From Chloroflexota bacterium (GTDB lineage Bacteria > Chloroflexota > Anaerolineae > Anaerolineales > UBA11579), in NCBI GenBank assembly GCA_019456165.1, contig VRUJ01000013.1, forward strand, positions 1 through 64,000: a DNA stretch of 64,000 nucleotides, read 5' to 3'. This document shows, one piece after another, positions 9,940 through 44,870 of this stretch. The stretch's first letter is position 1. Every line of letters starts with the position of its first letter. Both the position numbers and the translations under genes were made by a program. Under the pieces are notes generated by a model that saw nothing but the letters and a program-made list of their open reading frames with translations, did not search any database and had not been told where the DNA came from.

Positions 9940-10261
9940 ATTTATATTTCCTACCAGGTTCGGGCCAAAACGAGTTTATCTATTTCATTCTCCAGATTAT
10001 TAAAGATTGTTTAAGTAAATTCTCTTCAAAGCGGATTTTATAGGACAAGAAATATTGAGAGAAAAATTAATTTTGATCAGAAATAATTCACATAAATCTA
10101 ATTTAGATGTGTCCTTCAAAAGAATATCGAGGAGAAATTCCTTGCACCATTCAACTTCAAGTTTTCACTTAATATAATAATAGATTTCTTATCTTCGTGC
10201 TTAACAAATTGGAGAAGAATAATTTTCAAAAATAATAATAACTACAAGTTCCATCAACAAA
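9940..10261. other. AT-rich intergenic region
   Basis: About 320 bases between the histidine kinase start and the tRNA-linked terminator. It is strongly AT rich and without a plausible coding frame. It should contain the promoter of the kinase operon, but no site is clear enough to name. Confidence 0.4.
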
Positions 10262-10288
10262 AAAACAGCCATCAGGCTGTTTTTTTGT
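10262..10288 (-). terminator. Intrinsic terminator of the degenerate tRNA-Glu copy
   Basis: A hairpin with arms ACAGCC and GGCTGT around a 4-nt loop is flanked by T/A runs on both sides, so it can work in either direction. It lies immediately 3' of the tRNA-Glu remnant on the minus strand. This is the same arrangement as the terminator after the intact tRNA-Glu at 12919-12942. Confidence 0.75.
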
Positions 10289-10362
10289 GCCCCCACGGGG
10301 AATCGAACCCCGGTTTCGGCCTTGAGTTGGCCGCGTCCCAGGTCGCTAGATGGGGAATCCCA
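10288..10362 (-). pseudogene. Degenerate tRNA-Glu copy
   Basis: The 3' half matches the intact tRNA-Glu at 12950-13022: the T arm, the acceptor 3' strand and the CTC anticodon stem-loop, with two changes in the loop. On the 5' side, three bases of the D-stem are deleted and the acceptor 5' strand no longer pairs fully. It is followed by its own terminator. It is best read as the left attachment-site copy rather than a working tRNA. Confidence 0.7.
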
Positions 10363-10610: not shown

Positions 10611-12095
10611 ATGAAAAATAATAAATGGCTATTTGTCTTTTTGCTTGTACTTCTTAATTTCGGGATAAGTTTTTTTAACATCACCAGAGGACATAATTGG
10701 GGAGGCGATTTTTCTCAGTATATTATGCAAGCCCAAAGTATAGTTTTGGGATCAATAAACGAATTTATGTTAAGAAATGAGTTTACCATTAACCAATCGT
10801 CTTACCTTTTTGCACCCAATAGCTACCCTTGGGGTTTTCCATTATTATTGACACCAATAATTTATTTGTTTGGAATTAAAGTATTAGCTCTAAAATTGGT
10901 GGGGGTGTTTTTTTATTCAGCCTTTTTAATCGTGTTATTTATTTTTGCTTCTTTGCGATTGAAAGAAAAAGATGCGTTATTGGTAACCGCTTTTTTTGCA
11001 TTCAATCCAAGTATGCAAATAGCGATAAATAATATCCTCGCAGACATACCTTTTCTTTTCTTTTCAACATTAAGCATTTTTCTTGTTGATAAATATTCAA
11101 GTATTGAAAGGGAGAATAATAATAAATTTGGAATATTAATTGGAATAATTATATTTTTATCATTTACTCTTCGTGCAAATGGACTTCTCCTTTTTGGTGC
11201 TTTAGGTTTAATTCATTTAAATATTTTTCGGAGAAAAAAGGAGGAAAATAAAAACACTCTAAAGTGGTTGAAACTTTCTAGCATACCATATATCAGTTTT
11301 GCAATCTTGTATATTATTAATATTTATTTTTTACCAAATGGTCAAACCTCATATTATTTATTTTTATCAGATATAACATTTTCGGCGATTGTTGATAATA
11401 TCCCGGATTATTTTTCTCTGACCTCTGAGATATTTACCGATCTCCCGGGTAAAGAATATATTTATTGGTTGTTTTTATTCTTTTTTGTATTGGGCGTTAT
11501 TAAACGCGGCTGGCAAGATATTCACATTCACTTTTATATTATTACAACTTATATTTTATTTATTATTTGGCCATTCTGGGAACAATTTCGGTGGCTATAC
11601 CCGATATTGCCATTCTTTATATTATTTGGGATTGATGGCATGGTCTACTTTGTTCAATACTTTAAACCGCGAAATCAAAAATATTTCACGATGATCTATC
11701 GAGGATTTTTAATGTTTTTGATAATTTCTTCATTCTCTCAAGTATCAATTACCGCCAAGAACAATATGGCAAATAATCGTTTTGAGAGTGGACCATTTGA
11801 TCCTAATAGTTATCAAATATTTAGCTACATCCGGGATGAAACCCCTGAAAATAGTGTGATCGTATTTTTTAGACCCCGCGTCATGCGCATGTTGACGAAC
11901 CGAGACTCCTACTTATCCCTAGGATGTGATAATTTAATGTCGGGTGATTATGTGGTATTGTACGAACCTTCATGGGGGAATTACCAAATTCATATTGATC
12001 AAATTGAGCAGTGCAATAGCAATTCTTTAATGCTACAAGAAATTAAGAGAAATCCAGATTATAGGGTGTTTTCTATCACCCTTTTATCTCCTTGA
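10611..12095 (+). CDS. Multispanning membrane glycosyltransferase (GT39/ArnT-like)
   Basis: A 494-residue, very hydrophobic protein with around ten membrane helices and a C-terminal soluble tail. The first loop contains RGHNWGGDFSQYIMQA, which fits the acidic catalytic loop of polyprenyl-phosphate-sugar dependent GT-C transferases (Pmt/ArnT type), and NPSMQIAINNILADIPFLFFS fits a second conserved loop. Such enzymes move a sugar from a lipid carrier to a protein or lipid outside the membrane. The gene is markedly AT rich compared with neighbours and lies in the tRNA-flanked islet, suggesting transfer. The ribosome site is weak. The sugar and acceptor are unknown. Confidence 0.7.
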   Translation: MKNNKWLFVFLLVLLNFGISFFNITRGHNWGGDFSQYIMQAQSIVLGSINEFMLRNEFTINQSSYLFAPNSYPWGFPLLLTPIIYLFGIKVLALKLVGVFFYSAFLIVLFIFASLRLKEKDALLVTAFFAFNPSMQIAINNILADIPFLFFSTLSIFLVDKYSSIERENNNKFGILIGIIIFLSFTLRANGLLLFGALGLIHLNIFRRKKEENKNTLKWLKLSSIPYISFAILYIINIYFLPNGQTSYYLFLSDITFSAIVDNIPDYFSLTSEIFTDLPGKEYIYWLFLFFFVLGVIKRGWQDIHIHFYIITTYILFIIWPFWEQFRWLYPILPFFILFGIDGMVYFVQYFKPRNQKYFTMIYRGFLMFLIISSFSQVSITAKNNMANNRFESGPFDPNSYQIFSYIRDETPENSVIVFFRPRVMRMLTNRDSYLSLGCDNLMSGDYVVLYEPSWGNYQIHIDQIEQCNSNSLMLQEIKRNPDYRVFSITLLSP

Positions 12096-12176
12096 ACTGC
12101 GCAATAATGGTATTATGCTTATATTTTATTAAAAATTTTTTTATTTGAATATTGAAATCAGATGCTAAAAGAAAAA

Positions 12177-12926
12177 CAGCCTGATGGTTTCTCCCATTTG
12201 TGCCTGGAGAATGGAAAAACGATATTTTCTTGCGATTATTCTCTGAAGTACTATAACCATTTCACTCACCTACTACTAACCCATTCTCCCACACAAAAAA
12301 ACAGCCTGATGGTACCTCCCATTTGTGCCTGGAGAATGGAAAAACGATCATTTCTTGCGCTTATTCTCTGAAGTACTATAACCATTTCACTCACCTACTA
12401 CTAACCCATTCTCCTACACAAAAAAACAGCCTGATGGTTTCTCCCATTTGTGCCTGGAGAATGGAAAAACGATCATTTCTTGCGATTATTCTCTGAAGTA
12501 CTATAACCATTTCACTCACCTACTACTAACCCATTCTCCCACACAAAAAAACAGCCTGATGGTTTCTCCCATTTGTGCCTGGAGAATGGATTTGTAATAA
12601 TTTCTTGCGATTATTCTCTGAAGTTCCATATCCAATTCACCCACTTAGTACGGACCCATTCTCCTACACAAAAAAACAGCCTGATGGTTTCTCCCATTTG
12701 TGCCTGGAGAATGGATTTGTAATAATTTCTTGCGATTATTCTCTGAAGTTCCATATCCAATTCACCCACTTAGTACGGACCCATTCTCCTACACAAAAAA
12801 ACAGCCTGATGGTTTCTCCCATTTGTGCCTGGAGAATGGATTTGTAATAATTTCTTGCGATTATTCTCTGAAGTTCCATATCCAATTCACCAACTTAGTA
12901 CGGACCCATTCTCCTACACAAAAAAA
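12177..12926. repeat. Array of six exact-length 125-bp tandem repeats
   Basis: The motif CAGCC starts at 12177, 12302, 12427, 12552, 12677 and 12802 and again at 12927 in the tRNA terminator: six units of exactly 125 bp without indels. Units 1-3 form one sequence type and units 4-6 another. They differ in two internal blocks (about 10 and 30 bp), while the remaining blocks are nearly identical. From the second boundary on, CCATTCTCC pairs with GGAGAATGG, and inside it CACAAA pairs with TTTGTG, giving a nested stem per boundary (for example 12281-12339). The unit length is not a multiple of 3, so the near-identical open frames in it are not genes. Confidence 0.95.
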
Positions 12927-12942
12927 CAGCCAATAGGCTGTT
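12919..12942 (-). terminator. Intrinsic terminator of tRNA-Glu
   Basis: AACAGCC (12925-12931) pairs with GGCTGTT (12936-12942) around a 4-nt loop, followed on the minus strand by a run of T. It lies just 3' of the tRNA-Glu gene. Its upstream-strand arm and the flanking A run are shared with every unit of the neighbouring 125-bp array. Confidence 0.85.
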
Positions 12943-12949
12943 ATTTTTG

Positions 12950-13022
12950 TGCCCCCACGGGGAATCGAACCCCGGTTTCGGCCTTGAGAGGGCCGCGTCC
13001 TAGACCGCTAGACGATGAGGGC
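12950..13022 (-). tRNA. tRNA-Glu (CTC)
   Basis: A 73-nt cloverleaf. The acceptor pairs GCCCTCA with TGGGGGC (one G-T). The D-stem is GTC/GAC, the anticodon stem CGGCC/GGCCG carries the loop CTCTCAA (anticodon CTC, at 12986-12988), and the T arm is CGGGG-TTCGATT-CCCCG. The discriminator is A, and CCA is not encoded. An intrinsic terminator follows. The 3' half is duplicated at 10282-10326. Confidence 0.93.
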
Positions 13023-13054
13023 ATTATTTGCTTGTCAGTTTATTAGCGAGTGGA

Positions 13055-13063
13055 ATTCTACCA
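13055..13063 (-). promoter_or_regulatory. Extended -10 promoter of tRNA-Glu
   Basis: On the minus strand TGGTAGAAT is an extended -10 element (TG-N-TAGAAT) about 33 nt upstream of the mature tRNA 5' end. No strong -35 is seen. Confidence 0.4.
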
Positions 13064-13127
13064 TTAAAGGAAAACTTTGTGTCCGCTCGAGCCTTCCCTT
13101 TGTTAGCTAGTAAGGTCAAGGAAACAA

Positions 13128-24399: not shown

Positions 24400-24667
24400 G
24401 ATTTCATACTTATATTCACTAATCAATTCTAAAGAAACTTAGTTTATGCTGTAGATCATCTAAAACATCTATCAGGCATCTTAGATTCGGACAAGTGGGG
24501 GGACAGAGCTGCAACATTATTAGTAAACCTACTAATCCCAAAAATTTTCGAAAAACCTCAATTGTTCAAACTCAGAAAGTATACCCTTAATTTGGTGCGA
24601 TAACTCAATTCCAGTGGATGATATAATCAACCTCATCTACCTATCCTAATAATTTGTGAGGCAGACA

Positions 24668-42289: not shown

Positions 42290-43468
42290 CTATCCTTCAG
42301 GGAATGTTTCTTGAGCTTCCCAATCGGAAGTCCCTGAAGGAAGCATCATATTTATATGGGTACCTTTATTTGATTCTCCTATTGCTACATCTCCTCCTAT
42401 GGAACGCGCCATTGCCCTGGCGATGGTTAGCCCCAAACCTAAACCACCATACTCGCGAGTATCTCCTTGACTAATTTGATAATAGCGCTCAAATACTTTC
42501 TCACGTTAGCCAGTTGGAATTCCAGGACCCTCATCTTCTATTGATAAAACACAACCTCCATCACCTTGTGAAGTCAATTGAATTTTCACCTTCCCATAAT
42601 CCGGACTGAATTTTAGAGCATTATCCACTAAATGAATCGCGGCTTTCTTAAACTCGAGCCGAGGAGCATAAATTTCGCCCTGGTTTGAGATGGTTACTTT
42701 TACATCCAGGTTTTTCTCTTGATAAATACTCAATTGTTTATCTATTGCTTTAGAAAAATCGACATTCAAATCAATTGTTTGGCGCAAAGTGTTTAGAGAA
42801 CCCTGATCTAAATTTGTGAGGAAAATCAGGTCTTCAACTAAAAAGTGTAAATGCCTTGAGTTGGTTAAGGCTAGGTCAAGAAAATTGTTTTTATCTTCCG
42901 GATTCTCGTAATTTGCCAACATTCCTAGTTCTAAAGCCCCCAGAACTTTAGCTAAAGGAGTTCTAAGTTCGTGGTGGATATTCTGTAATATTTCTCGCCT
43001 TAATAACTCGAACTTCTCTTCTGCTTTTTCCCAGGTCTCTGTTCTTCCCAGATCCTTTCCAATTTCACTACGGCGAAGCACTGATTCGACCCGAGCAACC
43101 AATTCTTGGCGGTCGAATGGTTTGGTGATGTAATCATCCGCTCCGGATTTAATCCCCATCAATTTGTCGTCAAGATCGGTGCGCGCAGTGAGAAAAATAA
43201 AGGGTATGTTAATAGTTTGAGGATCTTGACTCAATCTTTGACGCAATTCGAAGCCATCCGGAGCTGGCATCATGACATCACAAACAATAATATCTGGTTG
43301 AGCTTCTTGCGCGAGAGATAATCCATCTGCCCCATTTCTCGCGGTTACTACTTCGTAACCAGCACGTTTCATAACGGCGCTTAGTCCAAAGAGTAAAGAT
43401 TCTTCATCATCGATTAACAATACCGTGGCAGGCTGGATATTCGTTATCGCTGTCATATTTTTCTCCAT
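42290..43468 (-). pseudogene. Receiver-histidine kinase interrupted by one in-frame TAA
   Basis: The N-terminal frame (43468-42506, 320 residues) encodes a receiver (about 12-125, VLLIDDEES, IIVCDVMMPAPDG) and a HisKA/HATPase core (ILQNIHHELRTPLAKVLGAL, KAAIHLVDNALKFSPDYG, IEDEGPGIPTG). A TAA at 42506-42508 then interrupts it. The same frame continues without shift for 71 codons (REKVFERYYQISQGDT, then YGGLGLGLTIARAMARSIGGDVAIG) to a TAG at 42290. The continuation carries the G2 box and the end of the ATP-binding fold, so the premature stop alone disables the kinase. The receiver could still work. Readthrough is conceivable but unsupported. Confidence 0.85.
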
Positions 43469-44053: not shown

Positions 44054-44143
44054 TTTCGGCGGCTTGGCAATCTTAGGCACCTGTTGGTGCCCTTAGACCC
44101 ATGGCTTTGCGTCCCTGTCTTTCGGCAGGTTTGCCTTTATCGT
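44054..44143 (-). promoter_or_regulatory. Cyclic di-GMP-I (GEMM) riboswitch, copy 1 (gene-proximal)
   Basis: On the minus strand the aptamer has GGCAAACC, a GAAA tetraloop hairpin (CCGAAAGACAG), GGACGCAAAGCC, GGTCTAAGGGCACC-AACA-GGTGCC and TAAGATTGCCAAGCCGCC, all hallmarks of class I. It ends about 80 nt before the start codon of the secreted protein. With no clear terminator between it and the gene, control of translation is possible. Confidence 0.88.
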
Positions 44144-44218
44144 GACTAAATTTGGTCTGATAAAAAAATTTGAGATTGAACTGCTTGGTTCTATTACCCC
44201 TCTTGCTCCGAAATTACT

Positions 44219-44308
44219 TTCGGCGGCCTGGCTATCTTAGGCACCTGTTGGTGCCCTTAGACCCACAGCTTTGCGTCCTTGGCTTTCGCCAAGTTTGCCT
44301 TTATCGTG
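44219..44308 (-). promoter_or_regulatory. Cyclic di-GMP-I (GEMM) riboswitch, copy 2 (middle)
   Basis: Same architecture as its two neighbours: GGCAAACTTGGCGAAAGCCAAGG (hairpin with GAAA loop), ACGCAAAGC, the TCTAAGGGCACC-AACA-GGTGCC arm, tetraloop receptor TAAG and closing ATAGCCAGGCCGCCG. It differs from copy 1 in the first hairpin and from copy 3 at a few sites. It lies downstream of the intrinsic terminator that follows copy 3. A T7 run after it (minus strand) is preceded only by weak pairing. Confidence 0.9.
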
Positions 44309-44357: not shown

Positions 44358-44377
44358 AAAAATTCATGTTGTAGATC

Positions 44378-44466
44378 TTCGGCGGCCTGGCGATCCTAGG
44401 CACCTGTTGGTGCCCTTAAACCCAAAGCTTTGCGTCCTTGGCTTTCGCCAAGTTTGCCTTTATCGG
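44378..44466 (-). promoter_or_regulatory. Cyclic di-GMP-I (GEMM) riboswitch, copy 3 (gene-distal)
   Basis: First aptamer of the leader on the minus strand: GGCAAACTTGGCGAAAGCCAAGGACGCAAAGC core, the TTTAAGGGCACC-AACA-GGTGCC arm and TAGGATCGCCAGGCCGCCG. An intrinsic terminator follows at 44332-44357. Three nearly identical aptamers in series would give a steeper or logic-gated response. Confidence 0.9.
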
Positions 44467-44870
44467 AAATTCATGTTAATTTACTACTATTACAGAAACA
44501 TGTTACCACGAAAACTTACCTGCGCTCTTAACATTCTCGCAAGTTTAAAAAATCCTCTTGAATGAATAGGAACAATTTTTTCAGAACGTAGTTGTAAGTA
44601 GTTGATACCAATAAGGCATTTGTCACTGATTTATTAGGACATTTAACCCTATTTGAAATTAAATTTATTGCGTAATCTTATATTATATGTCCTGATTTTA
44701 AGCTGAATTTCAAGTATAATTTCTCTGTCTTCGATTAAAACTCTAAGATATTCCAGAGAACTTCCAAACCAACTTAGAGGGAACAAGATTGAAATGAAAT
44801 GTTAATCTATTTGAATAACAAATCAATATACAATAATATTTAATGATTTCCTATTTAGGACAAATGGCGT
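44467..44870. other. Intergenic region upstream of the riboswitch leader
   Basis: About 400 AT-rich bases. They should contain the promoter of the riboswitch transcript on the minus strand. At 44489-44510 the string ATTACAGAAACATGTTACCACG resembles the terminal sequence of the insertion-sequence remnants at 44871 and 58296. No gene is seen. Confidence 0.4.

Follow-up and report, generated by a model that had tools for sequence, protein, structure and literature searches.

A six-unit tandem array directly 3′ of a tRNA-Glu gene in an Anaerolineales genome, probably derived from the tRNA flank

The window, that is, the whole 64-kb stretch of DNA analysed here, contains a single tandem array according to Tandem Repeats Finder (TRF), located at 12172–12931 with a period of 125, 6.1 copies, 95% matches and 0% indels. 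A tRNA-Glu gene with anticodon CTC is encoded on the minus strand at 12949–13022, so that the array constitutes its 3′ flank, and the extent of the periodicity places the end of the array within the terminator of this gene. Exact periodicity spans 12172–12931, and the phase in which six units can be counted spans 12177–12926. The features of the locus are as follows.

10257–10350, minus strand: decayed tRNA-Glu copy (tRNA positions 11–74) with terminator, 92% identical to 12918–13012
10611–12095, plus strand: AT-rich ORF of 494 aa, lying between both tRNA-Glu copies and converging on the array
12063–12082, plus strand: terminator-like site where the AT-rich ORF ends
12177–12301, minus strand: unit 1, type A, most distant from the tRNA
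12302–12426, minus strand: unit 2, type A; positions 13, 14 and 59 of the unit carry private changes
12427–12551, minus strand: unit 3, type A
12552–12676, minus strand: unit 4, type B, same sequence as unit 5
12677–12801, minus strand: unit 5, type B
12802–12926, minus strand: unit 6, type B, with one change, adjoining the tRNA
12925–12942, minus strand: bidirectional intrinsic terminator of tRNA-Glu, whose 3′ arm (GGCTG and a T-run) opens every unit
12949–13022, minus strand: tRNA-Glu, anticodon CTC (Rfam RF00005, 60.9 bits)

Both TRF and a comparison of the individual units confirmed the description given in the first-pass annotation, namely six units of 125 bp without indels that fall into two types. 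Types A (units 1–3) and B (units 4–6) differ from each other at 17–20 positions, and the differences within a type number 2–6 among units 1–3 and 0–1 among units 4–6. The additional claim that the types differ only in two internal blocks was correct with respect to the blocks themselves (unit positions 40–49 and 74–102), but position 114 also differs, and private changes occur in units 2 and 6 at positions 13, 14, 59 and 91. A protein-coding repeat was rejected, because the period of 125 is not divisible by three and the ORFs within the array (69–90 aa) shift frame between units. The copy number of six might itself be an artefact of assembly: the genome is a draft of 63 contigs, a kind of assembly that does not fix copy number, and the 226 nt that are exactly identical at offset 125 exceed common short reads, which leaves the number of type-B units uncertain. 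We nevertheless consider such an artefact very unlikely, given the two unit types with their private changes, the unbroken register and the unique flanks on both sides.

When the units are read on the minus strand, each opens with GGCTG and a T-run, which bears out the earlier proposal that they share one arm of the tRNA-Glu terminator; CACAAAAAAACAGCC stands at the end of each unit and connects to the terminator of the tRNA. As in tyrT-type arrays, the tandem units begin directly 3′ of the tRNA gene, here with a shared terminator arm. With regard to the 3′ end of the tRNA itself, only GGCACAAA matches within the unit, corresponding to at most 8 nt of tRNA plus trailer, and when the unit was aligned with the tRNA 3′ end, anchored on the right, 25 of 1000 shuffles equalled or surpassed the type A alignment and 285 of 1000 that of type B. 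The origin of the unit became apparent from the second tRNA-Glu gene of the genome, which has the anticodon TTC, lies on contig C9 and possesses a single-copy 3′ flank. This flank aligns with ~102 of the 118 nt of the unit core with a score of 64, compared with a shuffle mean of ~23.7 and shuffle maxima of 44 (type B) and 52 (type A); the score was reached by none of 1000 dinucleotide shuffles for each unit type and by none of 300 simple shuffles. No unit match was found in the other 34 scored tRNA-Glu flanks of the family (z at most 2.7). The flank of the TTC paralogue therefore represents one diverged copy of the unit, in support of the suggestion that a tRNA 3′ flank founded the array, and the unit is an old tRNA-Glu trailer region that was duplicated only at the CTC gene. 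We consider it quite likely that the array is the own 3′ flank of the tRNA-Glu(CTC) gene in tandem, comprising the trailer, the 3′ arm of the terminator and ~100 nt beyond, and that it is most likely functionless.

The first duplication may have occurred by slippage or template switching from the terminator arm GGCTG-T7 to a GGCTG-like sequence located ~100 nt downstream; from the sequence, we infer this arm and this GGCTG-like site to be the breakpoints, and the inverted repeat perhaps helped by bringing both breakpoint ends together. The two diverged units would then have been multiplied by unequal exchange, with type B being the most recent. Unequal exchange had already been proposed on the basis of the block structure, and the observed pattern fits duplication together with exchange between units; the near-identity within types, including the complete identity of units 4 and 5, was counted in favour of tandem amplification. 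Once formed, the array would have been tolerated between two facing terminators, and it most likely does nothing and is neutral. As the TTC gene preserves the founder in single copy, the way in which a bacterial tandem array came into being can be followed directly at this locus.

We then considered the stems predicted at the unit boundaries. The sequences CCATTCTCC and GGAGAATGG are each present in six copies that keep the register, and each boundary can fold CCATTCTCC/GGAGAATGG around CACAAA/TTTGTG, as described in the first-pass annotation. Folded as ssDNA, this boundary stem reaches −13.6 kcal/mol (z −4.1), and none of 200 shuffles was as good. The same arms can alternatively pair inside one unit with a loop of ~66 nt, and whole units folded as RNA prefer this within-unit pairing over the boundary stem; the RNA folds have z values between −1.7 and −3.0 in four units read on the minus strand, and between −2.6 and −2.9 in two units read on the plus strand. 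All 22 variable positions lie outside the 30 arm positions (hypergeometric P 0.0012); in a control that preserves the clustering of variable positions, 2 of 125 rotations gave such a result, and with this control considered, the invariance of the arms is only mild evidence of constraint. Taken together with the boundary fold, it makes some constraint on the stem arms possible. The arms are the same in all six units, but the sole homologue outside the array, the TTC flank, lacks the second arm, which weakens the idea that selection acts on the stem.

A repeated functional element of RNA or ssDNA would account for these stems if the stem-loop of each unit acted as a small RNA, expressed through tRNA read-through or from a promoter of a type outside our scan. 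The rtT RNA is thought to act as a small RNA in E. coli. The RNA fold z values down to −3.0 (minus strand) and −2.9 (plus strand), the z of −4.1 for the boundary stem as DNA and the invariant arms are consistent with such a function. However, a sigma-70 consensus scan of 12000–13100 returned no promoter-like site, compared with 2.7 expected from shuffles, and terminator-like sites lie both between the tRNA and the array, separating the two, and where the facing ORF ends. No Rfam family except tRNA scored above threshold, and the RtT model (RF00391) gave no match in 12100–13060 up to an E value of 5, with four matches in the K-12 positive control. The unit has no homologue in relatives, and its TTC paralogue is without the second arm. 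Selection on folded RNA, which had been put forward as a possibility, is thus unsupported, and we regard a functional element of this kind as improbable. The result for the window is deflationary, in that no new RNA system is needed to explain it.

The neighbourhood of the array points to a further event. The AT-rich ORF has a G+C content of 32%, compared with 44% for the window, and shows a weak Pfam PMT match (20.3 bits, under the cut-off of 22.7) to a protein of PMT-like membrane type. Together with the decayed tRNA-Glu copy, it makes the locus look like an old insertion site at a tRNA gene: a direct repeat of the 3′ part of the tRNA surrounds an insert of 32% G+C, as in integrative elements. 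The array, the ORF and the decayed copy at 10257–10350 might accordingly all be remains of an integrative element in the tRNA-Glu gene, the units being leftover attachment-site repeats. Comparable traces exist in other genomes, including a further unit-like copy beyond a cysteine-synthase-like gene (named by eye) downstream of tRNA-Glu in G002, a tRNA-Glu 3′ remnant 4.1 kb downstream in G001, and, in G033 (L214), tRNA 3′ ends with a distinct terminator behind each. Nevertheless, no integrase match (PF00589) was found on contig C4, to which the window belongs, with 10 matches elsewhere in the genome, the units contain no clear tRNA 3′ end, and an ordinary tRNA flank present in single copy is a homologue of the unit. 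Moreover, the sequence following the decayed copy does not resemble the unit, so that array and insertion were probably separate events. An integration scar accounts better for the neighbourhood than for the array, and we consider it unlikely as the source of the units.

Elsewhere in the window, we observed three tandem c-di-GMP-I-GGC riboswitch aptamers on the minus strand (44054–44144, 44218–44308 and 44377–44467), ~160 bp apart, scoring 67–72 bits in Rfam and with a mean column identity of 95%, upstream of a response regulator/histidine kinase ORF at 42506–43468.

Searches beyond the locus returned no second copy of the array. It occupies a single place in its own genome, where the only other hits were short matches to the terminator of the decayed tRNA copy, and among the 399 other genomes of the order one gave a match, a trivial one of 42 bp. 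No match to the array was found in phages or plasmids, and no exact pattern match in genome contigs or viral contigs; in view of these results, a mobile repeat family was rejected. A PGI-like neighbour gene was found in six relatives, with tRNA-Glu beside it in none of the six; the genus is represented in the comparison set by this genome alone. The possibility raised earlier that relatives lack any similar array was borne out for this particular sequence, but unrelated arrays occur at the same kind of place. No report of tRNA-flank arrays in this bacterial group was found in the open-access literature searched.

These unrelated arrays were surveyed by counting repeats that start within 60 nt, comprising the last 20 nt of the tRNA and the 40 nt behind it; loci with short flanks (L101, L114, L185, L200, L223, L249 and L284) were excluded before the counts, and L209, a locus outside the family whose repeats lie farther out, was not counted as a case. 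Within the family, 7 of 36 scored tRNA-Glu loci carry such repeats (38 given, the window's own included). Four of these 36 have TRF arrays, with periods of 125 in the window, 88 in G002, 97–100 in G015 and 98 in G013, and the other three cases are diverged pairs in G007 and G013 and a weak one in G001. Outside the family, the proportion was 5 of 56 scored loci among 59 given, which had been picked near the top of the match list, blind to their flanks; G167 has a TRF array of 79 bp, the only one at these 56 loci, G033 has three tRNA 3′ ends with three different terminators, and pairs occur in G046, G048 and G137. In total, arrays or copies of unrelated sequence are present at 12 of 92 scored tRNA-Glu loci. 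An initial suspicion of specificity for tRNA-Glu arose because, of 101 other tRNAs scored in three genomes (44, 27 and 30), 1 had a TRF array (any direct self-repeat at 6 of 101); the sample covers part of the tRNAs of G013 and G002, and both genomes had been picked for their Glu arrays. This specificity was dropped, since copies within 60 nt were present at 4 of 29 matched control tRNA-Lys loci from the order, three of them real copies of the tRNA 3′ end, whereas the tRNA-Glu counts were 7 of 36 within the family and 5 of 56 beyond it. At control tRNA-Asp loci, 0 of 29 had repeats within 60 nt and 2 of 29 had repeats farther out. The 3′ ends of tRNA genes in this order thus often carry such copies, and a special position of tRNA-Glu is not proven.

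Several individual loci showed related arrangements. At L214 (G033), the last ~21 nt of tRNA-Glu occur three times in ~200 nt 3′ of the gene, with a distinct terminator hairpin behind each copy, as though three elements had arrived and nothing but their ends had remained. Behind tRNA-Lys in G073 (L278), G070 (L291) and G058 (L292), inserts of ~95–165 bp lie between 20–40 nt copies of the tRNA 3′ end. A tandem array with a period of 152–154 and 2.3 copies is present 3′ of tRNA-Arg(CCG) at L148 (G013), and contig C18 of G017 ends at 24484 (L114), exactly at a tRNA-Glu 3′ end, which would be compatible with an array of repeats left unresolved there. In genus g5, GGAGTT...AACTCC hairpins with differing stems occur near tRNA genes on either side (L109–L112, L116, L118–L120, L127, L140, L141, L148 and L154); their occurrence away from tRNAs was only sampled, within the sequence stretches examined, and a stricter count, which mostly missed these hairpins, was not used. 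Kinship between the g5 hairpins and the window stem was rejected, as only GGAG is common to both. A shared stem family with compensatory changes was rejected as well: the G001 flank (L006/L095) has two GAGAAC/GTTCTC stems of seemingly related form, but when this flank was aligned with the unit, 296 and 100 of 1000 shuffles were at least as good.

From this survey, it is conceivable, if highly speculative, that the tiny non-coding inserts (~80–250 bp) recurrently gained at tRNA 3′ ends in Anaerolineales and kin (sampled for Glu and Lys), lying between 20–40 nt copies of the tRNA 3′ end and often with their own terminator, might be minimal non-autonomous elements that attach there, with tandem arrays like that of the window as their polymerised form. 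The 118-bp tRNA-Lys insert of G058 was found only at home when searched in 200 genomes, which argues against a spreading mini-element.

The array is best placed, as a duplicated tRNA 3′ flank, among known cases of which E. coli tyrT/rtT is the classic one, and constitutes a new example of this kind. At the tyrT locus (rtT RNA, RF00391), tandem repeats likewise follow a tRNA gene immediately on its 3′ side: four sites in E. coli K-12, spaced 178 bp apart, carry the exact last 19 nt of tRNA-Tyr, and Rfam gives four RtT matches. Strains vary in copy number, as a 175-bp variable-number tandem repeat of rtT RNA differs between two Salmonella Paratyphi A genomes (PMC2658671). The window array is unrelated to tyrT in sequence, adjoins a different tRNA, contains at most 8 nt of tRNA plus trailer per unit and, judged from its sequence, gives no hint of an RNA product. 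Within the same order, G002, G013, G015 and G167 likewise have tandem units, of 79–100 bp, anchored at the 3′ end of tRNA-Glu; their sequences are unrelated to that of the window, and the units of G002, G013 and G167, read by eye, clearly include the tRNA 3′ end, whereas the window unit has no clear one. A perfect period, few copies and an intergenic position are features shared with intergenic variable-number tandem repeats in general, from which the window array differs in that its founder was identified as a tRNA flank. The occurrence of similar but unrelated arrays in this order suggests that tRNA termini repeatedly give rise to tyrT-type arrays as a by-product, and that such arrays are not a peculiarity of enterobacteria.
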